Positions 8,401 to 44,946 of a stretch of 64,000 bases of DNA are shown here, piece by piece. Both the position numbers and the translations under genes were made by a program. Source of the DNA: Phycisphaerales bacterium (GTDB taxonomy: Bacteria > Planctomycetota > Phycisphaerae > Tepidisphaerales > Tepidisphaeraceae); the NCBI GenBank assembly GCA_020847375.1, contig JADLCB010000011.1, positions 124,001 through 188,000 of the forward strand. The letters are read 5' to 3'. Under the pieces are notes generated by a model. The model worked only from the letters and a program-made list of their open reading frames with translations, made no database searches and was not told the DNA's origin. How positions within the stretch are numbered: position 1 is the first letter of the stretch; each line of letters starts with the position of its first letter.

Positions 8401-8629
8401 TGTGCTGCCTCTGGCGATTGCCCGCGGCGCCGGTGCTGGTGCTCAGCAGGCGATTGGCGTCGGCGTGGTGGGCGGTGTGGTAACCGCCACGTTCCTTGTG
8501 ACCCTTTTTGCGCCAATGTTCTATGTGGTGATCCATCGCACCTTCGCCAAAAAACGCCGTGACGATGACAAACCGCATCAGGTACGGGTTGAACCGCAGG
8601 AGAGCGAACCAGTCCTGATCGGTCAGTGA
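5432..8629 (+). CDS. RND multidrug efflux permease (AcrB/MexB, HAE1 family)
   Basis: Proton-driven inner-membrane exporter of about 1065 residues with 12 membrane segments and two large periplasmic loops. The proton-relay residues are visible: Asp408-Asp409 in GLLVDDAIVVVENVERIM and Lys946 in GLTTKNAILIVQFAKAR. The opening (SRFFLDRPVFAWVTAIIVM) and the SQYPPIAPPSI segment are standard for HAE1 drug pumps, as opposed to the metal pump at 52.7 kb. The start is a GTG with GGAG 7 bases before it; no better ATG exists. It is the last gene of the TetR-adaptor-pump unit and is followed by a strong terminator. Substrates cannot be read from the sequence. Confidence 0.96.
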   Translation: MLSRFFLDRPVFAWVTAIIVMLAGALAIYGLPISQYPPIAPPSIAIDSFYPGASAKTVEDSITQIIEQKMTGFDNMLYLSATSSSSGASRIELTFTPGTDPDVAWSQVQNKLQLAMASLPEVIQRQGVKVSKSTRNYLMIVNLYSANGALTAIDLRDYATSNIQNVLARVPGVGEVEAFGGQYAMRVWLDTAKLTNYSLTIADVVAALRSYNVEVSAGQFGGAPAVAGQQLNAAITVQNLLKMPEEFANIPVRTNDDGSVVRVSDVGSTELGTERYDQDVQYNGKPAAGLAVRQAPGANALDTADAVKAKMAELKQFFPDGMDYSFPYETTPFVRVAIHEVVRTLFEAIVLVFLVMFLFMGNMRATLIPTIAVPVVLLGTFGVLGIFGFSINMLTMFAMVLAIGLLVDDAIVVVENVERIMSEEGLNPLQATRKSMDEITSALIGIGLVLSAVFGPMAFMGGSTGIIYRQFSVTVVAAMLLSVLVALILTPVLCASLLKPLPPGKHSPAEAGIWFLRPFFRWFDRVFEHSRNVYLKQVKLTIRHTISFGVIFVLLSLALVYLFRRMPTAYLPDEDQGMMMVQAILPPNTTMQSTNEVLNRIRDYFLTEEKDSVDTIMQISGFSFAGQGQNMGMAWIKLKNWDDRQSAALKVQAVVGRAMGRFSQWRDAMVFAFAPPAVLELGNAKGFDFQLQDRGGIGHEALMQARNDLLQMTAKDPRLAAVRANGMEDVPEYRVDIDWEKVGALGVPIDAVHQTISAAFGSAYVNDFIQGGRVKRVYLQANASDRMLPSDIDKLYVRNTAGRMVPFTSFASGRWDFGSPKLERYNAFSSINIQGEAAPGHSSGEAMAAMEELAGKLSQGIAYDWTGISYQERMASSQTGILYTFSVLVIFLCLAALYESWVVPISILLVLPLGAIGGVIATSIMGLPNDVYFQIGILTTLGLTTKNAILIVQFAKARVEEGMNVVDAAMEASRLRLRPIIMTSLAFGFGVLPLAIARGAGAGAQQAIGVGVVGGVVTATFLVTLFAPMFYVVIHRTFAKKRRDDDKPHQVRVEPQESEPVLIGQ

Positions 8630-8704
8630 GACGGTGTAACCACCCGCCATGTCGGTCTGGATCGAACAAAATCGATTCGGAAAAAACCAATTGTGAGAAA
8701 AATA

Positions 8705-8739
8705 CAAGCCCGCGGACGATGATCCGTGGGCTTGTTTTG
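8705..8739. terminator. bidirectional rho-independent terminator
   Basis: A 12-bp stem with a single G-T type mismatch (8705-8716 with 8723-8734) and a 6-base loop is followed by TTTT on the plus strand. On the minus strand the same hairpin is followed by TATTTTT. It sits between the convergent RND pump gene and the Rrf2 gene and can serve both. Confidence 0.85.
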
Positions 8740-8760
8740 GTATTGAATTGTTCAGCAGGC

Positions 8761-9255
8761 TTAGATGGACAAAACCTTCTGCATCTCGCCTTCAAACCCA
8801 GTCCGCTGCTTATCAGCGATCTGTTTGTCAGCCTTAAGCGTATGAAGCATCGGCTCATCTTCATTCATCAGATCAGCCAGCGTGGTCTCTTTCAGCAGTT
8901 GCTCGTACATCTTGTTAATGCGGTTGAACCGCATGCACAGGCACTGTAGCTCGGGGGTCTGTTCAGCCTGACAGTCGCAGGGCTGCTCGAAGTCCGCCGG
9001 CAGGGCGTCAATCGCCCGCAGCACGTCGTAAATGCGCACCTGCTCAGGAAGCAGGGCAGAACGAAAACCGCCATGCAGACCTTTCTGGCTATCCACCAGC
9101 CGGGCACGAGCCAGCTTCTGAAGTGTCTTACCAAGATAATTGGCAGGCACTTTGATCCGCTCGGCAATACGGCAGGCCTGATGATAATCATCATCTGGTT
9201 TCTGCGTGAGGTGGATCAGGGCATGCAACGCGTACCGTGACGTTTGTGTGAGCAT
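8761..9255 (-). CDS. Rrf2 family transcriptional regulator
   Basis: 164 residues from the ATG at 9255, which has an AAGGAG box; the longer frame upstream has no such signal. The winged-helix N-terminus (MLTQTSRYALHALIHL, then VPANYLGKTLQKLARARLV and KGLHGGF) is characteristic of Rrf2/IscR/NsrR proteins. Four cysteines lie in the region where IscR and NsrR hold their Fe-S cluster: Cys93 and Cys95, then Cys105 and Cys107. The spacing differs from the usual three-Cys pattern, so an iron-sulfur cluster is likely but not certain. A palindrome lies over its own promoter, so it probably represses itself. No iron-sulfur assembly or nitric oxide gene is next to it to name its regulon. Confidence 0.88.
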   Translation of the reverse strand: MLTQTSRYALHALIHLTQKPDDDYHQACRIAERIKVPANYLGKTLQKLARARLVDSQKGLHGGFRSALLPEQVRIYDVLRAIDALPADFEQPCDCQAEQTPELQCLCMRFNRINKMYEQLLKETTLADLMNEDEPMLHTLKADKQIADKQRTGFEGEMQKVLSI

Positions 9256-9269
9256 GTCGCTCTCCTTGT

Positions 9270-9311
9270 AATAAGACAAAAGTATCTTATTAGGTTCGCC
9301 GCAAAATGCAA
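9270..9311 (-). promoter_or_regulatory. Rrf2 promoter with palindromic operator
   Basis: On the minus strand: TTGCAT (9306-9311), 16-bp spacer, TAAGAT (9284-9289). The -10 box lies within an inverted repeat of AATAAGA and TCTTATT (9270-9276 and 9285-9291, 8-bp spacer). A further half site ATCTTATT lies upstream at 9331-9338. The repeat ends 15 bp before the start codon. This is the layout expected for an autorepressed Rrf2 gene. Confidence 0.6.
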
Positions 9312-9504
9312 GCACTAATCGCATAAAATCATCTTATTTTTTCCACCCTTGAAAAGACTGATTTGTAAGACGAAGAATAATTTCTGTAAACTATTTTAAT
9401 TGCAGTGGTTATGATACGTTGAGATTTGGATAGACGCTGAACAACAGGGAAATATAATCGCTCGCCTAAAATTGTTTTTCAGCTGTTTTGCTGTTCGTCG
9501 GGGT

Positions 9505-12500
9505 CTAATTTGTCTGATCGACCAGTGCTTTTTTGCCGCGATTTTTCTTCCGTGCTGGCTTGGGGGCAGATTCGCGAATATGCAGCTTGGGTTTGAGATA
9601 TTGCGCAGTATATGAACCAGCCACTTCACATAACGATTCGGGCGTACCCTGTCCGATGATCTGTCCGCCACCTTGACCACCCTCAGGGCCAAGATCGATC
9701 AACCAGTCAGCGCATTTAATCACGTCCAGATTATGCTCGATCACCAGAATCGTATTGCCAAGATCAGCCAGCCGGTTCAGCACATTCAACAGATTGTTGA
9801 TATCCGCAAAATGCAGACCGGTGGTCGGTTCGTCCAAGGTATAGAGCGTATGTCCGGTGGAATTTTTACCCAGTTCACTGGCCAGCTTGACGCGCTGCGC
9901 CTCCCCGCCAGATAGCTGCGTGCTGGGTTGGCCTAATCGTAGATAAGACAACCCCACATCATTGACCGCCTTAAGCATGCGATGAATTGAGGGAAAGTTA
10001 TCAAAGAAGACCAGTGCTTCCTCCATCGTCATGTCCAGAACATCCGCGATGGTCTTGCCGCGGTAACGAATCTCCAGCGTCTCAGCGTTGTAACGCTTGC
10101 CGTGGCATACTTCGCAATCAACATAGACATCCGGCAAAAAGTGCATCTCGATACACTTGGTGCCCTGGCCCTGACAGGCTTCACATCGTCCACCTTTGAC
10201 GTTGAAACTGAATCGACCCGCTTGGTATCCGCGCAGCTTGGCTTCGCGCGTTTTGGCGAAAATCTTGCGGATTTCATCGAATATGCCGGTATAAGTCGCG
10301 GGATTGGAACGACTGGTCCGCCCGATGGGTGACTGGTCAATTTCGATCACTTTGTCGATGTGCTGCGTTCCGCTGATTGATTTGTACGCGCCGGGCTTGA
10401 GCTTTGATCCATACAATTTGCGCTTCAGGGCCGGCAGCAGCGTCTGGTTGACCAGCGTACTTTTACCCGAACCGGAAACACCGGTCACGCAGATGAGTCC
10501 ACCCAGCGGAATGCGCACATCAATGTCTTTCAGGTTGTTGGCGCTGCAGCCCTTGAGTTCGATGCAATGACGCGCTGGCGCTAATGGGCGGCGTTCATCC
10601 GGCAATTTGATTTCCAGTTCACCCGTCAGGTAACGAATGGTTGTCGATTGTTTCTGATTAAGCACCTCCGGCATGTCGCCCTGGGCAACCACCATGCCGC
10701 CATGCGCACCAGCCGCCGGGCCGATGTCGATTAAATGATCTGCCGCACGGATGCAGTCTTCATCATGCTCGACCATCAACACCGTGTTGCCAATGTCGCG
10801 CAGACGCAGCAGGGTGCGGATCAAACGCGCATTATCGCGCTGATGCAGACCAATGGTTGGTTCATCCAGCACATAACAGACGCCAACCAATCCCGACCCA
10901 ACCTGCGTCGCCAGGCGAATACGCTGGGCTTCACCACCGGAGAGCGACCCGGTTTTTCGATCCAGCGTCAAATAACCCAGGCCAACATCCACCATAAAAC
11001 CGAGTCGCGCGCCAATTTCCTTGATGATGGGTGCGGCGATTTTTTGCCCTTCACTGTTCAACTGCAGATTTTCAAAAAACGTCCTGGCTGAATCGACCGT
11101 CATGATGGCAACATCATGGATCGAATAACCGGGTAGCTGGAGGCCACCGGCAGCGCCTCCGTTCTTTTTTGCTTTGCCCGCCTTGCCGTTTTCGCCAGCC
11201 TGCTTTGAGGACTTATTGAGTGGCTCGGGCGATTGATCCATGCCGTTGGCTGCAGCCCTTGGGAAGGCTTCATCCGCCAGACTATGCAGGCGCACAGCCA
11301 GAACTTCTGGTTTAAGTCGCGTGCCTTTGCACGTTTCGCACGGTTGTTCTGATTGATAATGAAAAAGTCGGGTTTTGACCCATTCTGATTCGGTTGTCTC
11401 GAAACGTCGTTGCAGATTGGGAATGACACCTTCAAACCAGCCGTCAGCGTCGCTGCCCGTCACATGATCACTGCCAAACATGAGAATATCGCGCACTTTT
11501 TTAGGCATTTGGCTGAACGGCGCGCTGTAATCGACGCCATGCTCGCGGCAGAACTGACGTAGCGCCCGGCTGTAGTAGATGTTCATCCGCTTGCCGTTCT
11601 TGCGCCACGCTTCAATCGCTCCGTTCTCCAGGCTGAGCGATTCATCGGGGACGATCAGATCGGGATCAAAATCGCTGGTCGTGCCCAAGCCATGGCAATC
11701 AGGGCATGCCCCCTGCGGGGCATTGAACGAAAAGACCCGCGGTTCCAGCTCCGGCAGATTCACTTCCGGATGACGCGGACAGGAAAAACGCTGGCTGAAA
11801 ATCTGGTCCGACCAATTACCATCTGGCTGGGCAATGCTGGCAATGACAAGTCCCTGACTCAGTCCGCCGGCCGTCTCGATTGAATCAGCCAGGCGCGAAC
11901 GTATCTCCGGCTTGAGGACAATCCGGTCAATCACCGCCTCGATATCGTGCTTAAAGTGTCTGCCCAGCTCTGGCAACTTGGCCTGGCTCAGTTCAATGAT
12001 CTGTCCATCAACTCGGGCACGCACGAATCCTTGTTTGATTAGCGCCGAAAAAACTTCCTTGTGGTGTCCTTTCATGGCGCGAACCACCGGGGCCAGAATC
12101 ATCACCTTCGTCCCAGCCGGCAGGGCGAACACGGCATCAGTAATCTGGCTGGCGCTTTGCGCTGTGATGCGCGTACCACATTTGTAGCAGTAGGGCGTTC
12201 CGGCCCGGGCAAAGAGCACGCGCAGATAGTCGTAGATTTCGGTCGTGGTGGCGACGGTGGATCGCGGGTTGGAACTGGCTGAACGCTGTTCAATGGCAAT
12301 GGTTGGAGGCAGGCCCTCAATCTCGTCGATGTCCGGTTTTTGCAGTTGATCTAGGAACTGCCGCGCGTAGGCGCTGAGCGATTCCATGTATTTACGCTGG
12401 CCTTCAGCGTAAATCGTATCGAACGCCAGTGTGCTTTTCCCCGAACCTGACAAACCGGTGATCGCCACCAGCCGATCACGCGGGATATCAAGATTAAACC

Positions 12501-26757: not shown

Positions 26758-28419
26758 CTACGGCTGGCTGGTCACCGGTTTGTCCTGCCATCCCATTCCC
26801 TCCGCGGGGCTGCCGGGCTTGAGATGGAAATCATCCTTGATCGGGTTGACCCATCGCGGGTTAGCCACCTTGGCGCCTTCGGCCAGACCCAGCTCATGCG
26901 CCCTTTTAAGATCATCACGCTGACCTAAATTGAAGATTTCATATTTTTTAGGATCATTGTCAACCTGGATGAGGCCCAGCATGTAGATTTTACTGACCGG
27001 ACGGAGTTCAAAGAAATTGTTCCTGATGATGTTGTCCATCGAGTTCGCGCCAACAAAAAGGGCGATATCACCAAGCGTCGGGCTGCCGACAATATTATTC
27101 TCGACCCGGTTATCCTTCAGCGGCAAATCCCAGCCCCAGTCGCGTCGGGGCATGCCATGCAGAAGAATGTTGTACAAGTTCCCGTAACAGGTGTTGTTTT
27201 CCACAATCGCATCGGAGGAACCGGCAATATAAATGCCCTGGGATTTATTTTTAATCACCCGGTTGTTTCGGATCAGAACCCCGTATTCATCTCCTTCGTC
27301 TTTATTGCTGATTTCGTAGAAGATTCCAGCCCCGTTGTTGTACGCGGTGAAGTTGTCCAGCACCTGGTTGTTACCCAGCGCGCCATCGAACCAGATCCCC
27401 GCCCCGTTGTTATACGTCACCTGGCAATTACGGACCGTAACCGCTTTGATTCCCGGAATCAGCTTCATCCCACCGCCATGCCAGGCGCGATTGAAATTGC
27501 GGTAATTGTTGTAGTTGATCGTCGAATCTTCCAATACCACATTCTGCGGCGCAATGCCGGCATACTTGACTTTACGAACCCCTGCCGGAACATTGGGAAA
27601 CTCCTCCCAGTTTCCACTCATGCCGACACCCACAATACCGTTATGGGAAAAATCGCAGCGGCGGATCACCGAGTCGTGGGCAACCAGCGTGATTCCGCCA
27701 CCATCACCATAATTCATCACGCAATCTTCAATCGTCCAGTTTGTGCTCGAGGCGACCGTGACCAGTCCCAACAGCCTGTTGGCTGCGCTGGCGTTATTGT
27801 GCATGAAACCGATCTTGCGCAGGACAACATGCGATACGCCCTTGGCCAGCAGGAGCTGGCCCGGCACGATCGACGCCTCCATCACATGCTTGTTGGGGTC
27901 CGATCGATCAGCCAACATGCAATAGAGAACCTGGGCAACGCTGTCATAGAAAAACGAACCGGGAACCAGATCTTCCAGCCCCATGCCCACCGGAGGCAGC
28001 AGCGCTTTGCTCTCGTACTCGCCCGATTTTTGAAAGGTGTTCTGAATACCGATCTGCTGAAGGGGCTGGCCATCAGCAAATAACTGTTGGCTGTTGACCC
28101 GAACACCGGCAAGCTTCCAGACACCCGGTTTGTCCGCCTGCCAGTTTTTCACCAGCACTGATCCTTTGATGATCGTTTTATCCGCCCCGGCCCCTTCGAT
28201 GATCAGCGGTTTTTTATCCGTTCCGCCCCGCGTCACATTCACGGTGGTTTCAAGGCGATAGGTTCCAGCCCCCAGACGGATCGTGTCGCCAGGGTTGGCC
28301 TTATTCATAACGGCTTGCAGCGCGTTGGAATCCGCTCCAACCGGTACATTGATGACCTTTCCCAAGGTCGGAGACAAAATAACGAAACAGAGAATCCCCG
28401 TCAGCAGTGTTCGTGCCAT
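26758..28419 (-). CDS. secreted right-handed beta-helix protein, paralogue A
   Basis: 553 residues from the ATG at 28419 with an AAGGAA box. Signal peptide (about 1-19, LCFVILSPTLG), then a pectate-lyase-like N-terminal region (VINVPVGADSNALQAVMNKA, PGDTIRLGAGTYRLE, PLIIEGAGADKTIIKG), and a parallel beta-helix from about 200 to 450 with repeating Asn-ladders such as VRNCQVTYNNGAGIWFDG and NAIVENNTCYGN-like turns. The end (WVNPIKDDFHLKPGSPAEG) is a common tail of such proteins. It is one of four paralogues in this island and pairs with the pseudopilin just upstream (32 bp). Catalytic residues cannot be assigned; it could be a lyase, an isomerase or a binding protein for a polysaccharide. Confidence 0.85.
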   Translation of the reverse strand: MARTLLTGILCFVILSPTLGKVINVPVGADSNALQAVMNKANPGDTIRLGAGTYRLETTVNVTRGGTDKKPLIIEGAGADKTIIKGSVLVKNWQADKPGVWKLAGVRVNSQQLFADGQPLQQIGIQNTFQKSGEYESKALLPPVGMGLEDLVPGSFFYDSVAQVLYCMLADRSDPNKHVMEASIVPGQLLLAKGVSHVVLRKIGFMHNNASAANRLLGLVTVASSTNWTIEDCVMNYGDGGGITLVAHDSVIRRCDFSHNGIVGVGMSGNWEEFPNVPAGVRKVKYAGIAPQNVVLEDSTINYNNYRNFNRAWHGGGMKLIPGIKAVTVRNCQVTYNNGAGIWFDGALGNNQVLDNFTAYNNGAGIFYEISNKDEGDEYGVLIRNNRVIKNKSQGIYIAGSSDAIVENNTCYGNLYNILLHGMPRRDWGWDLPLKDNRVENNIVGSPTLGDIALFVGANSMDNIIRNNFFELRPVSKIYMLGLIQVDNDPKKYEIFNLGQRDDLKRAHELGLAEGAKVANPRWVNPIKDDFHLKPGSPAEGMGWQDKPVTSQP

Positions 28420-28451: not shown

Positions 28452-29246
28452 TCAGGGCAGCATCGTTGTCAGGTTCGGATCGACCGTCCACATGCCACCG
28501 GCGTAACTGCCGGGCGTACGACCTTGCAGCGTATCAACGGGTAACATCATGCTGACGTGCCCATCAACAAAAGCGTAGTTATAATATTTACCGCCACCGT
28601 GAATCGGTTTGCCACCGATCGGCGCCTGGTTGGAAGGTACGTAGGCTAATTCGCGTGTCCCCAAGTCCGACCCGATGACGTTTTCCGGGTGAATGACTTC
28701 AACCAGCAACAGCGTTTCCGTCGGCCGGCGCGTCTGCGTTACCTTAACCCATCCCAAATTATTCGGCATGCTCCCATCGGTGTTCATCACGATGCGGCAA
28801 GCCATGCCACCCGGATCGGAAAGTTTGTATCGGCCGGTCATCGCGTAGCTGCGCCGGCGGGCAACAAGGCTCATGCCGGGATCGATCGGATAGGCATCAG
28901 CCGGGCAGCGCAAGACGGGCACATCAACATCCGATCGCCACGACTTCAGAGTTGCATCAGAGCGATTCAGACCCAACTGCCGGTCAATAATGTCATCCCA
29001 GGTATATTGGTTACTCGCCCAGCCAGCTCCAGAGACAGTCACCACGCCGGCGGGCAAAGCACCCTTGTTTTCACTGGCGTACATCAACATGGCGGTGGCG
29101 ATCTGCCGCATATTGCTGGCGCACGCGACCGTATTGGCTGCTGCACGGGCCTTATTCAGCGCAGGGAGCAAAATGGCAATCAGGACGCTGATGATCCCGA
29201 TAACAACGAGCAGCTCGACGAACGTGAAGGCTGATTTACGTGACAT
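28452..29246 (-). CDS. type II secretion-like pseudopilin (planctomycete prepilin-type), copy 1
   Basis: 264 residues. Prepilin peptidase site and helix: MSRKSA cut before FTFVELLVVIGIISVLIA, with Glu at mature position 5. The rest is a periplasmic globular domain with PVLRCPADAYP, and the tail has His, 11 residues, Asp-Gly (NYAFVDGHV), close to the H-X9-DG motif of planctomycete proteins of this kind. ATG at 29246 has GAGAGG before it. It precedes beta-helix A in the same run. Its first ~165 bases and its upstream 50 bases are about 93% identical to those of copy 2, while the body has diverged (264 versus 255 residues). Confidence 0.88.
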   Translation of the reverse strand: MSRKSAFTFVELLVVIGIISVLIAILLPALNKARAAANTVACASNMRQIATAMLMYASENKGALPAGVVTVSGAGWASNQYTWDDIIDRQLGLNRSDATLKSWRSDVDVPVLRCPADAYPIDPGMSLVARRRSYAMTGRYKLSDPGGMACRIVMNTDGSMPNNLGWVKVTQTRRPTETLLLVEVIHPENVIGSDLGTRELAYVPSNQAPIGGKPIHGGGKYYNYAFVDGHVSMMLPVDTLQGRTPGSYAGGMWTVDPNLTTMLP

Positions 29247-29295
29247 GGCACACCTCTCAATTCGTTGAAACACGTAACCGTGCTTGCGCCGCCGG
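29075..29295. repeat. duplicated pseudopilin 5' segment, copy 1
   Basis: 221-bp block that aligns without gaps to 31724-31944; by eye I count 16 mismatches (about 93% identity). It spans the first ~57 codons of pseudopilin copy 1 and 49 bp before its start, ending at GCGCCGCCGG. Beyond this point copy 1 continues into lacI-like sequence and copy 2 into unrelated sequence. Confidence 0.85.
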
Positions 29296-29398
29296 AATCA
29301 CTCAGGTGATCGTCAAATGTCATGACGGATAAATCATGAGGGATCCGCATTCGCAATTCGACCCCGGCAGTCCAGAGAACCGGCCACGGTTGATGCAC
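29296..29398 (-). pseudogene. remnant of a lacI-type repressor gene
   Basis: The minus strand reads as LWTAGVELRMRIPHDLSV and then MTFDDH-SDSGG, which matches the effector-binding domain of the intact LacI protein encoded at 32808-33872 (there LWAAGAELRMRIPQDLSV, MTFDDHPCDSGG). At DNA level 29296 onward aligns with 33020 onward for about 80 bp at roughly 87% identity. Nothing else of the gene is left: both ends run into unrelated sequence. It sits between beta-helix B and pseudopilin copy 1. Confidence 0.85.
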
Positions 29399-29400
29399 AG

Positions 29401-31047
29401 CTAATTACCTGATACCGGTTCCTGCCATCCTTTACCCTCCGCCGGGCTGCCCGGCTTGAGGCGAAAATCCATCCCTGCAATGTCCACAAACTGTGGATCG
29501 CCGATCTTGGCGCCCTGCGCGTATCCCAGCTTATTCGCCGCCGCGCGCCTGCGTGGGTCGCGCAGATCGAACACCGAATCCATGCCGCTGTAGCTGGCAC
29601 TTCCCACCAGCGACAGCAGATGTGTTCTGCCCGGTTTGTCCATATAAAAGTTATCCTTGATGACGTTGTTCGACGAGTTCTCGCCGACGAAAAGAACGAT
29701 GTCATTCAGCGACGCCTCTATCTCCTTGGGAGAACCGCCCACAATGTTGTTGGTCACGACATTGCCGGTCAGCGCGTTGCCCCACGCCGGCTCCGTCCGC
29801 GGCATTCCATGCAACGAGATGTTGTACCGGTTGCCGTAACAGGTGTTGTGATCCACGATCGCATCGCGGGAACTGGCAATGTAAATGCCCTGGGTCTCGT
29901 TGTTGATGACGCGGTTGTTGCGGATAAGACAGCTATAGCGGTCCTCCTGATCCCGTACGCCGATCTCATACATGATCCCCGCCCCCATGTTGTCGGCTAC
30001 GAAATTGTCCTCGATGAGATTGTCGCCCAACGGGCCGTCAAACCAGATGCCCGCCCCCAGGTTGCCGACCACCCGGCAGCGCCGCACCGTGGCGCCGCGG
30101 ACGCCGGGAATCAGTTTCATTGCCCCGGCGTGGTCATACTTGTCAAAATTCCGGTAGTTGTTGTGCGAGACGTTCAGATCCTCCAACACCACATGCTGGT
30201 TGGGTAAACCGAAATACTTGTACTCGCCGGCGGGCGCTGTCGATTTCCACTCTTTCCACGGCCCGCTCACCCCTATGCCCATTCGCCCGTTCCACGAGAT
30301 GTCGCAATGACGAACGACCGTGTCGTGAACCGACAGTCCAAGCCCCGCCATGGCGCCAAAACGCATCGCACAATTTTCAATCAGCCAGTCCATTGCCCCG
30401 GCAATCCCGACCAGCGTGTCGGTGGAGTGCATGAAACCGATGCCGCGAATCACCCCATGCGATGCCTCGGAGATCATCAGAAGCTGCCCTTGGACGATCG
30501 TCGCCTCCATGACATGCCCGTTGGGATCGGACTGGTCCGCCAACATGCAGTAGATCGAATGGCTCGTCTTGTCGTAATAGAACGATCCGGGACGCAGGTC
30601 GCGCAAGTCCTCGCCCACCACCAAAAGCTGGGTCTTGCCGGTGCTTTGACGATTCGCCTGCCATTGGTTCTGCACGCCAATCTGCTGGAGCGGCCAACCG
30701 TCGACCAGCAACTGCTGGCTGTTGATCTCCCGGTCGCCGACTTTCCAGACGCCGGGCCTGACTTTCACCCACCCCGTGACCAGCTCCGATCCCTTCAGGA
30801 TCGTCTTGCCCGCGCCAGCGCCCTCGATCACCACCGGCCGGCCCGTCGCACCTCCGCGCGTGAGCGTGAGCGTCTTATCCACGCGGTAAACACCGGCCGC
30901 CAGCCGCACCGTATCGCCCGGCTCGACCTGACTCAACGCCGTCTGGATGGCTTTGGTATCCGCACCGGCCGGTACTTGAATCACCCGCCCCATTGCCGGG
31001 GACAGGATGCTGAAAACCAGGAATCCAACCAGAAGTATCTGCGCCAT
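29401..31047 (-). CDS. secreted right-handed beta-helix protein, paralogue B
   Basis: 548 residues; ATG at 31047 preceded by AAAGGA. Signal peptide (about 1-20, FLVFSILSPAMG), the same pectate-lyase-like start (VIQVPAGADTKAIQTALSQ, PGDTVRLAAGVYRVD) and a beta-helix (about 200-450) with turns such as VRRCRVVGNLGAGIWFDG and AIVDHNTCYGNRYNISLHG. It ends with FRLKPGSPAEGKGW. The middle segment (QSTGKTQLLVVGEDL) is shared with paralogue C but not with A and D. It follows pseudopilin copy 2 by 80 bp. The lacI remnant lies 3 bp behind its stop codon. Confidence 0.85.
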   Translation of the reverse strand: MAQILLVGFLVFSILSPAMGRVIQVPAGADTKAIQTALSQVEPGDTVRLAAGVYRVDKTLTLTRGGATGRPVVIEGAGAGKTILKGSELVTGWVKVRPGVWKVGDREINSQQLLVDGWPLQQIGVQNQWQANRQSTGKTQLLVVGEDLRDLRPGSFYYDKTSHSIYCMLADQSDPNGHVMEATIVQGQLLMISEASHGVIRGIGFMHSTDTLVGIAGAMDWLIENCAMRFGAMAGLGLSVHDTVVRHCDISWNGRMGIGVSGPWKEWKSTAPAGEYKYFGLPNQHVVLEDLNVSHNNYRNFDKYDHAGAMKLIPGVRGATVRRCRVVGNLGAGIWFDGPLGDNLIEDNFVADNMGAGIMYEIGVRDQEDRYSCLIRNNRVINNETQGIYIASSRDAIVDHNTCYGNRYNISLHGMPRTEPAWGNALTGNVVTNNIVGGSPKEIEASLNDIVLFVGENSSNNVIKDNFYMDKPGRTHLLSLVGSASYSGMDSVFDLRDPRRRAAANKLGYAQGAKIGDPQFVDIAGMDFRLKPGSPAEGKGWQEPVSGN

Positions 31048-31127: not shown

Positions 31128-31895
31128 TCAATGATTGTAGGTTCGCGTCCACATTCCACCGGCGTACGTCAGCGGTTGTCCAGCGGGAATCGTGTCCTGC
31201 GGTGCCATCAGTCGGACATGCCCATCGGCGAAGGCGTAGTTGTACTTACCATTGTGAATTGGCTTGAAGCCGGGCGACTGATCAGCGGGCCGGAGGTGGC
31301 AATCGTGGCCGGAGTAACCGATAACGTTGTCTGGCCAGATCGCCTCGAACAGGAGGATGGTTTCCGTTGGACGGCGCGCGGAGGTGATTTTGACAAATGG
31401 TGCGCCCGTGTCGGTGATCATACCGGAAGCATCCACACTCAATTGGCGTCCAAATCCGCCCCCGATCGGCGGATTGGTCTCTGCGGTGATCGCATAACTG
31501 CGCCGGCGAGCCACGACGCCCAGGCCAGGATCCACGGGGAGCGTATCCGCCGGGCAGCGCAGCACCGGCACATCGACGGAAGAGCGCCAGGATTCCAGCA
31601 CCGCCTGGGATCGTTGCAGCCCCAGGTAGGGGTCGAGCAAATCATCCCAGGTCAGAACCTGTGGATTGCCCGGCGAGCCAGGTAGCCGTAGATCGGCCGG
31701 CGGCAGGTAGCCGTGATTGTTGTTGGCGTACATAAACATGGCGGTGACGATCTGCCGCATGTTGCTGGCGCACGCGACCGTATTGGCAGCTGCACGGGCC
31801 TTATTCAGCGCAGGGAGCAAAATCGCAATCAGAACGCTGATAATTCCGATAACGACCAGCAGCTCGACCAACGTGAAGGCTGATTTACGTGACAT
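31128..31895 (-). CDS. type II secretion-like pseudopilin (planctomycete prepilin-type), copy 2
   Basis: 255 residues from the ATG at 31895 (GAGG box). The N-terminus MSRKSA, then FTLVELLVVIGIISVLIA, is a type IV prepilin signal with Glu5. The tail has an exact H-X9-DG motif (His, NGKYNYAFA, Asp-Gly). The domain between contains PVLRCPADTLP and a SARRPTETILLFEA segment seen in many planctomycete members. In the run it follows the PEP-CTERM gene (136-bp gap with nested inverted repeats) and precedes beta-helix B. No secretion ATPase or secretin is encoded nearby, so it would rely on a machinery elsewhere. Confidence 0.88.
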   Translation of the reverse strand: MSRKSAFTLVELLVVIGIISVLIAILLPALNKARAAANTVACASNMRQIVTAMFMYANNNHGYLPPADLRLPGSPGNPQVLTWDDLLDPYLGLQRSQAVLESWRSSVDVPVLRCPADTLPVDPGLGVVARRRSYAITAETNPPIGGGFGRQLSVDASGMITDTGAPFVKITSARRPTETILLFEAIWPDNVIGYSGHDCHLRPADQSPGFKPIHNGKYNYAFADGHVRLMAPQDTIPAGQPLTYAGGMWTRTYNH

Positions 31896-31944
31896 GGAAC
31901 ACCTCGCAACTAGTTGAAACACGTAACTGTGCTTGCGCCGCCGG
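31724..31944. repeat. duplicated pseudopilin 5' segment, copy 2
   Basis: Partner of 29075-29295, about 93% identical and ungapped. The shared stretch runs 49 bp upstream of the pseudopilin start and stops abruptly at GCGCCGCCGG. Confidence 0.85.
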
Positions 31945-32807: not shown

Positions 32808-33872
32808 TTAGATAAGAGGTTTTTCCCGGAAGTCTTGGCGCAGGACACGCGCCTGCTCCGATGGATTGGTGCAACTCGATCCCCGCTCCAGAGTCAGCGG
32901 CAAAGCGCGACTGGGAAGGGGAGAGGTTGTGGTTTCGATTTTTTCAAACAGCATTTCCGCCGCCACCTGGCCCAGGTCATAGCCGGGCAGGATCATTGTG
33001 TCGATCGCCACACCGCCGGAATCACACGGATGATCGTCAAATGTCATGACGGATAAATCCTGTGGAATCCGCATTCTCAATTCAGCACCGGCAGCCCAGA
33101 GAATGGGCTGGGCGGTTGTGGCGGAATAGGTCAGCACCGCGGTGGGTCGGTCGTCGGCGGTCAACCAGGGGATCGATGCAGCAACCCGCTGGGAGCGGGC
33201 GATCGATCCGGGCACGTTCGGTTCGATGACCTGCGGTTTTAACCCCGCCCGCACCATCGCCTGAATGTACCCATCGCGTCGATCCACCGTGCTGTAGTGA
33301 CCAACGCCGGAATAGTTGACATACGCGATACGCTGATGCCCCAGACGCAGAAGATGTTCAGTGGCCTGCACACCAGCCTGGAAGTCATCAGGATAGACCC
33401 GATCCATCTCCTGTTTGGCATTCATCCAGACCGAAGGAATGCGATATTTGTCGATCAGCTCGAGCATTCGAGCAGGCACGCGGGCGACGTAGTTGATGAT
33501 CAACCCATCGCACGACCACTCGCGCAGCAAGTTGGGCATGACTTGTTCGCTGGTCAGTTTGGCATTGGGCAGACTCGCGACGGTAAGACGCAAATCTTTT
33601 TTCGCCAGCGCATCTTGAATACCCGACAGCGTTTGCCCGAGCAGATCGCTGTGATGAGGCTCGGAACTGAGTAGCAGACCGATACAGCCGAACGCACCTT
33701 TGCGAATCGCGCGGGCAGCGGTATTGGGACGGTAATCCATCTCGCGGGCGACGCGCAAAACCCGATCGCGCGTCTCCGGACGCAAATGCCCCGCTTTCCC
33801 ATTCAACACCATGCTGACGCCGGCGCGGGAAATTTTGGCGCGTTGAGCAATTTGTTCCATTGTGACTGACAT
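32808..33872 (-). CDS. LacI family transcriptional repressor of the island
   Basis: 354 residues. The first ~55 form the LacI helix-turn-helix and hinge helix (TMEQIAQRAKISRAGVSMVL, then RPNTAARAIRKG). The rest is a periplasmic-binding-protein-like effector domain (ILWAAGAELRMRIPQDLSVM and the DDH segment near the end). Start at 33872 or the ATG four codons later. It heads the leftward run of seven genes and its own promoter carries the TCRAGTAACT site that also occurs at 45.1 and 45.3 kb, so it likely represses itself and the other three units until a sugar binds. The inducer is not known. Confidence 0.93.
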   Translation of the reverse strand: MSVTMEQIAQRAKISRAGVSMVLNGKAGHLRPETRDRVLRVAREMDYRPNTAARAIRKGAFGCIGLLLSSEPHHSDLLGQTLSGIQDALAKKDLRLTVASLPNAKLTSEQVMPNLLREWSCDGLIINYVARVPARMLELIDKYRIPSVWMNAKQEMDRVYPDDFQAGVQATEHLLRLGHQRIAYVNYSGVGHYSTVDRRDGYIQAMVRAGLKPQVIEPNVPGSIARSQRVAASIPWLTADDRPTAVLTYSATTAQPILWAAGAELRMRIPQDLSVMTFDDHPCDSGGVAIDTMILPGYDLGQVAAEMLFEKIETTTSPLPSRALPLTLERGSSCTNPSEQARVLRQDFREKPLI

Positions 33873-35274: not shown

Positions 35275-37344
35275 ATGAGTAATGCGTTTTACCAACCGCT
35301 GCCGGTCACGGAGTTTTATGTTTCGCCGGCAGGTAATGATCGCTGGTCTGGTAAAAAACCCTCAGCCCGAAAAGGCCGGACCGATGGTCCGTTCAAAACG
35401 ATCGAGCGCGCACAAAAAGCCGTGCGGGCGTTGAAGAAAAAAGGACGCCTCTCCACGGCTGTCAAAGTATGGTTGCGCGGTGGATTATACGAACTGAATA
35501 AACCGCTCGTTTTCACCTCAGCCGATTCAGGCACGTCGCGCCTCAAGACTGAACGGCTGCAACTGCCGATGACCATCACCTATGCTGCCTATCAGGATGA
35601 GCAGCCCGTCATCAGCGGTGGGCGTCGTATTACCGGCTGGAAACCTGCCCGGGTGAATGGCTGCGATGCGTGGGTCTGCACTATTCCTCCTGTGCGTCAG
35701 GGTAAGTGGAACTTCACACAACTATGGGTCAACGGTCAGCGGGCGACCAGACCTTGCACCGACAAGAAACGCCTGTTCCAGATCACCCAATTGCTGGGCA
35801 AGGTCTGCTGGGAAGGAACCGTCTGGCAGATGTATGATACCGGTCAGGATACGTTCCAATTCAAACAAGGGGATCTCCAGGACTGGCATAATGTTCAAGA
35901 TGTCGATTTCGTGGCGCTGCACTTCTGGATCGAAAGCCGGATTCCCTTTGCAGCAATCAACGTCAAAACGCATACCGCCCGGCTGCAACACAAATCGAGA
36001 ATGCGTCTGACCAACGACAGCGGTTCAGAAGGCGCTTTTTATTATGTTGATAATGTTTTTGAGTTGCTGCGTGAACCGGGACAATGGTATCTGGATCGGC
36101 CGGCGGGAAAACTTTATTACATTCCACGGGCAGGGGAAACAATCGAAACGGCCGAGGTGGTGGCGCCGGTGTTACCGCGTCTGGCGGTTTTTCAGGGTAG
36201 CGAAGATGCGCCGATTCGCCATCTGAATCTGCAAGGGCTGACGTTCAGCCATAACCAGTGGGTCTGCGGACCGGAGGCGCTGACCGCCACCCGTCAGGCG
36301 GCGTGTCATCTGGGTGGGGCGGTGGCATTTTTTCAGGCGGAGCATTGCGCGATGCAGCAATGCACGGTTGAGCATGTGGACGGGTACGCCATCGAGATCA
36401 ATCAGAATAGTTTTGATGTGGATATTCTCAGCAGCCGAGTTACCGACCTGGCCGGCGGGGGTATCAAGATCTGGCACGCAGCGTCAGGGCACGATAGGCA
36501 AATGGCTGATGGTTGTCAGGATATCACGGTCGCTGACTGCCAGATCTCCGATGGCGGGCACTACCATCATCAGGCGGTCGGGGTTCTTGTCGGCAAATGC
36601 AGCGGGACGCAGGTGATCCACAACGACATTCATCACTTTAACTACACCGGTATCAGTATTGGCTGGCAGTGGGGTTATGAAAAGGGTGATTCCTACGGCA
36701 ATGTGATCGAATACAATCATGTCCACCATATCGGGCATGGCGTTTTAAGTGATCTTGGGGGTATCTATGCGCTGGGTGTGCAGCCAGGCACACGCATCCG
36801 TTACAACATCGTGCATGATGTCACCAGCCGAACCTATGGTGGCAGCGGCATTTATACGGATGAGGGGTCGTCGAACATTTTGATCGAAGGCAATCTGGTC
36901 TATCGCACTGGCACCCAGCCGTTTACCCAACATTACGGTCAGAGCAATATGATTCGCAATAATATCTTCGCTTTTGGAGGTAAGACCCAGGTTAACCGCT
37001 CTGTCCCGGGGCCTGGAGATGACTTCACCCTGACGAAAAATATCATTTATTTCGATAATGACAGCGGAGTTGCCATTGACGGTAATTGGTCCAAAATCCG
37101 CGCGGTGATCAATCGGAATCTGTACTTTCACCGCCGTAAAAAACCACTTGTATTTGATGGTGGATCATTGAAACAGTGGCAGGCGCGCGGGCTGGATCGT
37201 GACAGCACCGTGGCCGATCCGTTGTTTGTGAACCCGGATAAGGGCGATTTCAGACTCAAACCCAATTCACCGGCAATCAAGATGGGGTTCCAGCCGATCG
37301 ACTTTTCGCTTGTTGGCCCGCGCCCCAGTCCCAAGCGTAAATGA
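35275..37344 (+). CDS. right-handed beta-helix protein, GH141-like, without signal peptide
   Basis: 689 residues; AGGGAA box before the ATG. N-terminal TEFYVSPAGNDRWSGKKPS, GPFKTIERAQKAVRALK, VWLRGGLYELNKPLVFTSAD and QPVISGGRRITGWKPA follow the opening pattern of the GH141 family (alpha-L-fucosidase/xylanase type). A long beta-helix (about 320-620) follows with HLNLQGLTFSHNQW, YAIEINQNSFDVDILSSRVT and GSGIYTDEGSSNILIEGN. Family assignment is from memory of the pattern and should be checked. It lacks any signal peptide, unlike the four smaller beta-helix paralogues, so it probably acts on imported oligosaccharides. It follows the AGE gene by 45 bp. Confidence 0.75.
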   Translation: MSNAFYQPLPVTEFYVSPAGNDRWSGKKPSARKGRTDGPFKTIERAQKAVRALKKKGRLSTAVKVWLRGGLYELNKPLVFTSADSGTSRLKTERLQLPMTITYAAYQDEQPVISGGRRITGWKPARVNGCDAWVCTIPPVRQGKWNFTQLWVNGQRATRPCTDKKRLFQITQLLGKVCWEGTVWQMYDTGQDTFQFKQGDLQDWHNVQDVDFVALHFWIESRIPFAAINVKTHTARLQHKSRMRLTNDSGSEGAFYYVDNVFELLREPGQWYLDRPAGKLYYIPRAGETIETAEVVAPVLPRLAVFQGSEDAPIRHLNLQGLTFSHNQWVCGPEALTATRQAACHLGGAVAFFQAEHCAMQQCTVEHVDGYAIEINQNSFDVDILSSRVTDLAGGGIKIWHAASGHDRQMADGCQDITVADCQISDGGHYHHQAVGVLVGKCSGTQVIHNDIHHFNYTGISIGWQWGYEKGDSYGNVIEYNHVHHIGHGVLSDLGGIYALGVQPGTRIRYNIVHDVTSRTYGGSGIYTDEGSSNILIEGNLVYRTGTQPFTQHYGQSNMIRNNIFAFGGKTQVNRSVPGPGDDFTLTKNIIYFDNDSGVAIDGNWSKIRAVINRNLYFHRRKKPLVFDGGSLKQWQARGLDRDSTVADPLFVNPDKGDFRLKPNSPAIKMGFQPIDFSLVGPRPSPKRK

Positions 37345-41552: not shown

Positions 41553-43220
41553 TTACCGGGCCAGATCTTTGCCGCTCCACCCTTTGCCGGCGGCGGGGCT
41601 GTCTGGCTTGAGACGAAAATCCATCGTGTCCGGGTTCATGAACTGTGGATCGCCAACCTTGGCGCCTTGGGCGTACCCAAGGTCATTGGCGGACTTGAGT
41701 CCGCTTGGATTACGCAAGTCATGAACGGAGCCATCGATCACATACCCACCGGTTGTGAGCGACAACAGAATGGTTTTCCCCGGCTTTTGTGCGTAGAAAT
41801 TATCCCGGACAACATTCCCGGATGAATCCTTGCCGGTGAAGACAACCATATCGATCAGTGAGGCCGACTCGTTCCAGATCGGGCCGCCCATAACATTGTT
41901 CACGACACGGTTGCCCACCAGCGTGTTGCCCCAATCGGGCTGAGGCCGGGGCATCCCATGCAGGACAATGTTGTACCGGTTGCCATAACAGGTATTGTTC
42001 TCGACGATTGCATCATTGGAACCGGCGATGTAAATCCCCTGCGTGTCGTTCTCAATGACACCGTTGTTGCGAATGAGGATGCCGTAGGTGTCCCCTTCTT
42101 CTTTGATACTAATCTCATTCATGATTCCGGCGCCAAAATTGTGCGCGACAAAGTTGTCCTCGACACGGTTGTTGCCAAGATCGCCGTCGAACCATATGCC
42201 CGTTGCAAGATTATCCGTGACGTGGCAGCGGCGGACTGTGACGCTGCGGACGCCGGGGATCAACTTCATGCCGCCGGCCATCCAGGATCGGTCAAATCGG
42301 CGGTAATTGTTGTGCGTGATATTCAAATCCTCCAGCACAACATTCTGCGGCGGTGTGCCGGCGTACTTGTGGACGCCCGAGTCCGGCTTAAAGGAATCGT
42401 AAGGCTTCCAATTTCCGCTCACAGCGACGCCCACCAGACCGTTGTAGGACATGTCGCAGCGGCGGACGACCGAGTCCCTGAAAACGATCGCCAGCCCGCC
42501 GCCGTCTCCGTATTTCATGGCGCAATCTTCAATGGTCCAATCGACGCCAAGAACAACCGTTACAAGTCCGGTCAGCTTTTCGGCGGCGCTTCCGTTGCTG
42601 TGCATGAAGCCCAGGTTACGAACCACGCCGTGCGAAATGCCGTTGGCCAACAGGAGCTGGCCTGGAACAATTGACGCTTCCATGACATGGCCATTGGGAT
42701 CGGATCGATCCGGCAACATGCAGTAGAGCGTCTTGGTGTTCTGGTCGTAAAAAAAAGAGCCGGGATACAAATCTCCCAGATCTTTACCCACGATCAGGAG
42801 CTGTGTTTTCCCGGTGCTTTGCATGTGCGCGTGCCAGATGTTCTGCTCGCCGATCTGCTGAAGCGACTGGCCATCGACAAATAACTGCTGGCTGTTGATT
42901 GTCCAGCCGCTAACCTTCCAGACATTGGGTTGGGTTTCCTGCCAGTTCTCCACCAGCTTCGACCCTTTCAGAATTGTCTTCCCAGCTCCGGCGCCTTCGA
43001 TGATCAGCGGTTGGCCCGGCGAGCCGCCATGCGTCACGTTAACGGTTTTATCGAGGCGATAGATTCCAGCCGCCAGGCGCACCGTATCTCCCGGACCTGC
43101 CTTGTCCATCGCCTCCTGCAGCGCATTGGAATCCGCGCCGGCCGGAACATCGATGATTCTTCCAAAGGCCGGAGAAATAAGGGCGAAAGTGAAAAATACG
43201 ACCAGTAGACACCGCATCAT
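41553..43220 (-). CDS. secreted right-handed beta-helix protein, paralogue C
   Basis: 555 residues; AAGGAA before the ATG at 43220. Signal peptide (about 1-20, VVFFTFALISPAFG), start region IIDVPAGADSNALQEAMDKA, PGDTVRLAAGIYRLD, then a beta-helix with VRRCHVTDNLATGIWFDG and AIVENNTCYGNRYNIVLHG. Its middle (QSTGKTQLLIVGKDLGDL) resembles paralogue B, whereas its residues ~24-122 are nearly identical to paralogue D. It follows D by 46 bp and precedes the dehydratase by 97 bp. Ends in FRLKPDSPAAGKGW. Function as for A: polysaccharide lyase, hydrolase or binder; catalytic residues not assignable by eye. Confidence 0.85.
   Translation of the reverse strand: MMRCLLVVFFTFALISPAFGRIIDVPAGADSNALQEAMDKAGPGDTVRLAAGIYRLDKTVNVTHGGSPGQPLIIEGAGAGKTILKGSKLVENWQETQPNVWKVSGWTINSQQLFVDGQSLQQIGEQNIWHAHMQSTGKTQLLIVGKDLGDLYPGSFFYDQNTKTLYCMLPDRSDPNGHVMEASIVPGQLLLANGISHGVVRNLGFMHSNGSAAEKLTGLVTVVLGVDWTIEDCAMKYGDGGGLAIVFRDSVVRRCDMSYNGLVGVAVSGNWKPYDSFKPDSGVHKYAGTPPQNVVLEDLNITHNNYRRFDRSWMAGGMKLIPGVRSVTVRRCHVTDNLATGIWFDGDLGNNRVEDNFVAHNFGAGIMNEISIKEEGDTYGILIRNNGVIENDTQGIYIAGSNDAIVENNTCYGNRYNIVLHGMPRPQPDWGNTLVGNRVVNNVMGGPIWNESASLIDMVVFTGKDSSGNVVRDNFYAQKPGKTILLSLTTGGYVIDGSVHDLRNPSGLKSANDLGYAQGAKVGDPQFMNPDTMDFRLKPDSPAAGKGWSGKDLAR
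42853..43150. repeat. near-identical tract shared with beta-helix D, in paralogue C
   Basis: 298 bp aligning without gaps to 44579-44876 with about 12 mismatches counted by eye (about 96% identity). It encodes residues ~24-122 of both proteins. Outside this tract the two genes are clearly less alike. Confidence 0.85.
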
Positions 43221-43266: not shown

Positions 43267-44946
43267 TCACCGACTTGCATTCTGCTCGTTCCACCCCATG
43301 CCCGCCGCCGGGCTGTCTGGTTTAAGGCGGAAATCGTCCTGCATCGGATCAACCCACATGGGATCGCCAAGTTTTATACCCTGGGCATAACCCATGGCCT
43401 GAACCGCCTTGAGTTGTTCAGGGTCGCGCAAATCGCGAATACCTTCCTTGGCCACATAATCGCTGACGCTCGGAAGCGTCATCAGGTGGGTTGTCTTGGA
43501 ATTATCCGCATAGAAGTTGTTGTCAACCGTGTTGTCAAATACATCCTTGCCGGCAAAGATAATCATATCGACAACAGACACGTAATTGCCCTGCGTTGCG
43601 CCACCAACAATATTGTTCTCGACCCGGTTGTTTTTAAGCGGCAAAATCCAGCCCCAGTCACGCCTGGGCATGCCATGCAGGACGATGTTGTACGCATTGC
43701 CATAACAGGTGTTGTTTTCCACGATCGCATCGGATGAGGCGGCAATATAAATGCCCTGTCCTTTATTTTTGATGGCGCGGTTGTTGCGAACCAGAACGCC
43801 ATATTCATCATCCTCATCCTTATTGCTGATTTCGTAGAAGACCCCGGCGCCGTTGTTGTACGCGGTGAAGTTGTCCAGCACGCGGTTGCTGCCCAGCGCG
43901 CCATCGAACCAGATCCCCGCCCCGTTGTTATGGGTCACATGGCAATTGCGAATGGTGACGGCCTTGATCCCTGGGATCAGCTTCATCCCGCCGCCGCTCC
44001 AGGCCCGATTGAAATTACGATAATTGTTGTAGCTGAGGTTGGAATCCTCCAAAGTTACGTTGAGCGGTTCAACTCCTGCATATTTATGTTTGTGAACGCC
44101 TGGCGGGACGTTGGGAAACTCCCTCCAGTTCCCGCCCATGCCAACACCCACAACGCCGTTATGGGAAATGTCACAGCGGCGAATGACTGAATCCCGACAG
44201 GACAGTGTCAGCCCACCACCATCACCATGATTCATCACGCAATCTTCAATGGTCCAATTCACACCGAAGACCACGGTCACCAGCCCCGTCAGTTTGTTCT
44301 CAGCCGAAGAATTGTTATGCAGGAAGCCGATCTTCCGCAAGACCACATGCGATACGGGCGACGCCTCCTTGGTCATTAGAAGTGGGCCAGGAACGATCGA
44401 TGCCTCCATGATGCGGCCGTTGGGATCGGAGCGATCCGGCAGCATGCAGTACAGACTCTGCGTATCAGTGTCATAAAAAAATGATCCCGGAACCAGATCG
44501 TCCAGCCCTTTACCCACTGGAGGCAATATCGGTTTGCTGTCGTACTCGCCTGACTTTTGGAAGGCGTTCTGGGCACCAATCTGCTGAAGCGACTGGCCAT
44601 CGACAAATAACTGCTGGCTGTTGATTGTCCAGCCGCTAACCTTCCAGACATTGGGTTGAGTTTCCTGCCAGTTCTCCACCAGCTTCGAGCCTTTCAGAAT
44701 AGTCTTCCCGGCTCCGGCGCCTTCGATGATCAGCGGTTGGCCTGGTGAGCCGCCATGCGTCACATTAACGGTTTTACCGAGGCGATAGATTCCAGCCGCC
44801 AGGCGCACCGTATCTCCCGGACCTGCCTTGTCCATCGCCGCTTGCAGTGCGTTGGAATCCGCGCCGGCCGGAACATTGATGACTTCTCCGAGGGCTGGAG
44901 ACAGAGCGCCCAAGCACACTATTCCCGTCAGCAAGGTCCGTAGCAT
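43267..44946 (-). CDS. secreted right-handed beta-helix protein, paralogue D (mosaic)
   Basis: 559 residues from the ATG at 44946 with AAAGGA before it. Signal peptide like that of paralogue A (MLRTLLTGIVCLGALSPALG). Residues ~24-122 match paralogue C almost exactly, while from IGAQNAFQKSGEYDSK onward the protein follows A again (FQKSGEYESK there), including VRNNRAIKNKGQGIYIAASS and RRDWGWILPLKNNRVENNIV. It is thus an A-type gene carrying a C-type tract. First gene of the minus-strand run controlled from 45.1 kb. Ends in FRLKPDSPAAGMGW. Confidence 0.85.
   Translation of the reverse strand: MLRTLLTGIVCLGALSPALGEVINVPAGADSNALQAAMDKAGPGDTVRLAAGIYRLGKTVNVTHGGSPGQPLIIEGAGAGKTILKGSKLVENWQETQPNVWKVSGWTINSQQLFVDGQSLQQIGAQNAFQKSGEYDSKPILPPVGKGLDDLVPGSFFYDTDTQSLYCMLPDRSDPNGRIMEASIVPGPLLMTKEASPVSHVVLRKIGFLHNNSSAENKLTGLVTVVFGVNWTIEDCVMNHGDGGGLTLSCRDSVIRRCDISHNGVVGVGMGGNWREFPNVPPGVHKHKYAGVEPLNVTLEDSNLSYNNYRNFNRAWSGGGMKLIPGIKAVTIRNCHVTHNNGAGIWFDGALGSNRVLDNFTAYNNGAGVFYEISNKDEDDEYGVLVRNNRAIKNKGQGIYIAASSDAIVENNTCYGNAYNIVLHGMPRRDWGWILPLKNNRVENNIVGGATQGNYVSVVDMIIFAGKDVFDNTVDNNFYADNSKTTHLMTLPSVSDYVAKEGIRDLRDPEQLKAVQAMGYAQGIKLGDPMWVDPMQDDFRLKPDSPAAGMGWNEQNASR
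44579..44876. repeat. near-identical tract shared with beta-helix C, in paralogue D
   Basis: Partner of 42853-43150 at a constant offset of 1726 bp. Both ends coincide with a change in which paralogue gene D resembles most, as expected for gene conversion or unequal recombination. Confidence 0.85.

Follow-up and report, generated by a model that had tools for sequence, protein, structure and literature searches.

Our analysis indicates that gene C very likely overwrote some 260–300 bp of its neighbour, gene D, through interlocus gene conversion (i.e., non-reciprocal homologous recombination) within the window, by which we mean the whole stretch of 64,000 nucleotides that was analysed. C and D are separate, older paralogues within a four-gene family of GH120-like beta-helix proteins located in a carbohydrate-utilisation locus. 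The contig is one of 31 that make up the draft genome (3.02 Mb), and this genome holds no close member of the family besides A, B, C, and D; all four lie on the minus strand with intact frames encoding 548–559 aa (Table 1), and gene C starts 46 bp past the end of gene D. Outside the tract C and D are only about 62% identical. The original prediction had reported a gap-free match of 298 bp with about 12 mismatches between 44579–44876 in D and 42853–43150 in C, and we recovered exactly this alignment, with 12 mismatches and the first differences beyond it at 44877 and 44578. At the scale of the genome, the best match to the tract apart from C is paralogue A at 74%.

Table 1. Positions in the window of the paralogues, the tract, the predicted catalytic codons and the second copied block.
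Feature	Position	Strand	Description	Basis
Gene D	43267..44946	-	559 aa; signal peptide and GH120-like right-handed beta-helix protein; supported as conversion recipient	ORF, Pfam Beta_helix, XylC match
Gene C	41553..43220	-	555 aa; supported as conversion donor	ORF, Pfam
Paralogue A	26758..28419	-	553 aa; nearest to D outside the tract, 71.5% nt overall	Pairwise identity
Paralogue B	29401..31047	-	548 aa	Pairwise identity
Converted tract in D, maximal extent	44579..44876	-	Residues ~25-122; 12 mismatches to C	Alignment, site table
Best-supported tract core	44579..44839	-	261 bp, 8 mismatches to C	Two-state likelihood scan, log-odds 103; site table
Donor stretch in C	42853..43150	-		Alignment, genome-wide match, site agreement
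Asp348 codon of D (GIWFDG)	43903..43905	-	Outside tract; aligned with XylC Asp382	Profile alignment
Glu372 codon of D (FYEI)	43831..43833	-	Outside tract; aligned with XylC Glu405	Profile alignment
Second locally copied block	29075..29379	-	LacI scrap (29289-29379), noncoding leader and start of DUF1559 gene 1	Copies at 33013-33103 and 31724-31944

The similarity of C and D in the tract extends to silent sites. Ten of the 12 mismatches fall on third and two on second codon positions, 2 of 98 residues differ, and dS amounts to 0.154 in the tract as against about 1.7 to saturated values downstream. In the sliding-window check that had been proposed, with windows of 90 bases, C and D are 93–98% identical in the tract and 47–77% identical in windows well outside it. 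Over the same stretch A and B are about 60% identical (about 55–64% in 90-base windows), and the four remaining pairs (A-C, A-D, B-C, B-D) about 65–75%. One could argue that the N-terminal cap is under strong purifying selection, which has kept C and D alike in the absence of any recombination, since this part is somewhat more conserved than large parts of the protein and 52% of its columns are identical in all four paralogues. This explanation has virtually no chance of being correct: third positions are alike between C and D in 88 of 98 codons of the tract compared with 186 of 432 outside (downstream), while A and B have diverged freely there, with 39 of 98 third positions of the tract alike. 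Purifying selection is thus refuted by the silent sites.

Several tests converge on an exchange between the two genes. In a GENECONV-like permutation the C-D segment scored 106.5 against a maximum of 24 over 5000 shuffles (p<=2e-4), and a segment scan across gene pairs gave a LOD of 98 for C-D and at most 15 for every other pair. In the tract, 17 four-taxon informative sites support AB|CD and one supports AD|BC; elsewhere the counts are 41 and 114 (Fisher p=1.9e-8). Approximately unbiased (AU) topology tests were carried out on tract and flanks with two outgroups added. A common topology for both parts had been named as the outcome that would contradict recombination, and the trees for the most part disagree with it: the flanks reject all topologies that unite C and D (AU of at most about 5e-5), and in the tract it is ((A,D),(B,C)) that fails, with AU of 0.002 for protein and 0.03 for nucleotides. 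However, neither tract nor flanks reject ((A,D),C),B, and topology alone is therefore insufficient as proof, which rests instead on branch lengths and on the divergence of silent sites. Proportional branch lengths shared by tract and flank were rejected with 2dlnL of 106–226 (8 degrees of freedom), compared with 4–16 for the same taxa in four equally sized control windows and no more than 17 in any control. Taken together, the permutation, the informative sites, the trees, the branch lengths, and a dS of 0.15 uphold the proposal of a recent recombination between paralogues, recent being understood relative to the age of the family. The pattern is that of gene conversion, with two switch points, inclusion of silent sites, different histories of tract and flanks, and a non-reciprocal character as judged from four paralogues only.

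The switches at the two ends of the tract, both of which had been described as sharp, are not equally well defined. In a two-state likelihood scan the right edge is indeed sharp (95% interval 44576–44590), but the left edge is fuzzy by about 45 bp (95% interval 44836–44882): over the 37 bp from 44840 to 44876, D matches C at 33 and A at 32 positions, and three of the four D-C mismatches agree with A. As this 37-bp portion can be assigned to A as well as to C, the length of the tract is given as 261–298 bp. The mosaic pattern claimed for the flanks likewise stands in part. Downstream, D follows A as far as about 43597 (86 sites for AD|BC, 17 for AB|CD, and 22 for AC|BD), but the signal becomes mixed in the last ~330 bp (23:22:11). 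In this terminal portion of D (43267–43596) neither A nor C is clearly followed, as might result from fast divergence or from an older exchange. The claim that C follows B in its middle is weak at best; the protein tree does pair B with C (support 89), but at the nucleotide level C is equidistant from both (146 sites agreeing with A and 148 with B) and the nucleotide tree shows no such pair.

The direction of the transfer can be read from the sites at which A and B differ. In D, the ratio of agreement with A to agreement with B is 53:40 in the tract and 246:71 in the flanks (p=1.7e-4), while the corresponding ratios for C, 51:42 and 146:148, do not differ (p=0.41). Since the affinity changes in D but not in C, the data support C as putative donor and D as recipient, mainly through this one contrast among four paralogues. 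Neither the set A, B, C nor the set A, B, D fits a tree of strictly proportional branch lengths; both donor models fail this test, and the site-agreement contrast is the better guide to direction. The opposite event, in which D overwrote C, would be in line with the protein tree of the tract, which sets C and D beside A (AU 0.97, versus 0.07 beside B), A being the partner of D elsewhere. We nevertheless regard it as improbable, given that C relates to A and B in the tract as it does in the flanks, which D does not, and given that the A-D protein distance reaches 0.35 in the tract as against 0.22 in the flanks of D at a similar A-B distance.

With C as donor, D probably suffered a strand break or a gap, for the repair of which C, 1.7 kb away, would have served as template. 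The product would be a chimeric D composed of an A-like signal peptide, a C-type N-terminal cap with the first coils, and an A-like catalytic body, and 8–12 mostly silent differences between C and D (dS 0.12–0.15) would have gathered after the event. Two points count against conversion. Before the event C and D were probably ~70% identical here, which is a poor substrate for RecA-type recombination (the longest run of identity between A and C in the tract stretch is 19 bp), and the genome encodes both MutS and MutL. The presence of these two proteins also led us to discard the loss of mismatch repair as an explanation. The case also shows a conversion at what was probably no more than ~70% identity between the two paralogues, in a bacterium with genes for MutS and MutL.

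Since 8–12 bases already differ between C and D, one may imagine that the C-like stretch came, by transformation or some other transfer, from a homologue of C carried by a different cell instead of from the resident C. We hold this to be very unlikely: the tract fits the history of C itself, its GC content is similar in both genes, and with C only 1.7 kb off another source is unneeded. The draft state of the genome, with its 31 contigs, likewise invites the thought that reads of C were joined into D during assembly, yet such a misjoin would have copied C exactly, at odds with the 12 mismatches and the preference of 10 of them for third positions, and all four frames are intact; an artefact of this kind appears extremely improbable. 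Conversion of D by the resident C is the reading that we retain.

As to the nature of the proteins, A–D are putative, distant GH120-like enzymes with a right-handed beta-helix. Pfam returned mainly generic beta-helix domains for the four proteins. A profile built from seven homologues has as its best match the GH120 beta-xylosidase XylC (PDB 3vst; E 9.7e-13), where only residues 32–103 score strongly and two further collinear stretches are weak. The AlphaFold model (pLDDT 74, pTM 0.79, from the seven-sequence alignment) adopts a right-handed beta-helix fold, and a fold search with this model again placed XylC first (E 2.3e-14, TM 0.57, about 14% identity over the fold alignment). XylC is therefore the best solved relative both by sequence and by fold. 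Its catalytic residues, the nucleophile Asp382 and the acid/base Glu405 (PMC8954004), align with Asp348 and Glu372 of D, which are invariant in all seven homologues (the four paralogues and three outside relatives) and form a predicted catalytic pair, although the aligned stretch that holds them is a weak match when taken alone. GH141 (BT_1002, PDB 5mqp) and the PL6 chondroitinase B and alginate lyases share with D a right-handed beta-helix and a similar N-terminal cap; their matches are weaker than that of XylC, with sequence similarity mostly confined to the cap. Tailspikes and mannuronan epimerases match the catalytic region weakly and were set aside in favour of XylC.

The genes surrounding the family comprise, according to domain matches, a GH42, an AGE epimerase, an MR/MLE enzyme, a CBM9 protein, and a LacI regulator, together with a beta-helix protein carrying a GH141-type insertion domain and an oxidoreductase with a GH109-type C-terminal domain. 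The former of these last two, at 35275–37344, is a fifth and distant beta-helix protein of the locus. Judging from these matches and neighbours, A–D are probably secreted glycosidases of a glycan-utilisation locus. None of the 150 genomes considered as relatives is of the same genus. An alignment-based scan of contigs retrieved only three distant homologues of the four genes, from one Phycisphaerales, one other Planctomycetota, and one Abditibacteriaceae genome; a single-protein scan of the relatives' contigs found no homologue. In the Abditibacteriaceae genome (L044:7583-14437) the order is LacI, DUF1559, GH120-like beta-helix, HAD, and CBM9-like protein, the kinds of genes being those of the window, which suggests a cassette that is either old or transferred. 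In a genome of the same family (L039) the homologue is broken into two overlapping frames, 8232–9233 and 9172–9816, by a frameshift or a sequencing error.

The tract corresponds to residues 25–122, that is, the N-terminal cap helix and the first coils, most of which the model predicts with high confidence; it precedes the predicted catalytic pair by more than 200 residues in sequence and leaves the catalytic region untouched. It had been suggested that recombination might diversify the binding surface. We found no support for this idea, since the tract made D like C (2 of 98 residues differ) over a fairly conserved cap, outside the predicted catalytic region. The event gives no sign of having been adaptive, and adaptive diversification is not shown by the event itself. 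The combination of a C-type cap with an A-like body may nonetheless have effects beyond those legible in the sequence. For annotation, a more practical warning follows: trees built from full-length D or from its N-terminal part will misplace D.

A second block points to more than one episode of copying in this locus. The segment 29075–29295 is 93% identical over 221 bp to 31724–31944. The match takes in 49 bp of noncoding leader ahead of two pseudopilin-like DUF1559 genes, and it drops sharply once about 170–180 coding bases are passed; the remaining DUF1559 genes of the genome attain no more than 69–75%, and their match begins with the coding part. Directly upstream, between DUF1559 gene 1 and gene B, 29289–29379 is an 88% copy of a part of the LacI gene (33013–33103). 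A microhomology of the CCGGCGG type is seen at the join of this LacI scrap, and scrap and join together look like the scar of a duplication followed by a deletion. It is tempting to go further and to picture a locus of repeated ectopic copying (the cap from C to D; LacI-leader-DUF1559) that swaps GH120-like caps between catalytic bodies and changes substrate choice; we consider this improbable.

As interlocus gene conversions among clustered genes go, this one is ordinary: it illustrates a known process well, and does so cleanly for a little-studied bacterial lineage. Conversion between bacterial paralogues is well documented, with concerted evolution of tuf and other genes (PMC6053082), and more than 300 events have been counted among paralogues of M. 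tuberculosis (PMC13061034). As mean tract lengths of 200–300 bp are commonly reported in yeast (PMC3924818), the tract in D is of ordinary size. Like the PE/PPE/ESX genes of M. tuberculosis and like tuf, C and D show the replacement of a short stretch in which silent sites are copied while the flanks and both genes are kept; they differ from these systems in that a single event is seen, in a single genome, in that the two genes share only ~62% identity beyond the tract, and in belonging to a family devoted to glycan degradation.
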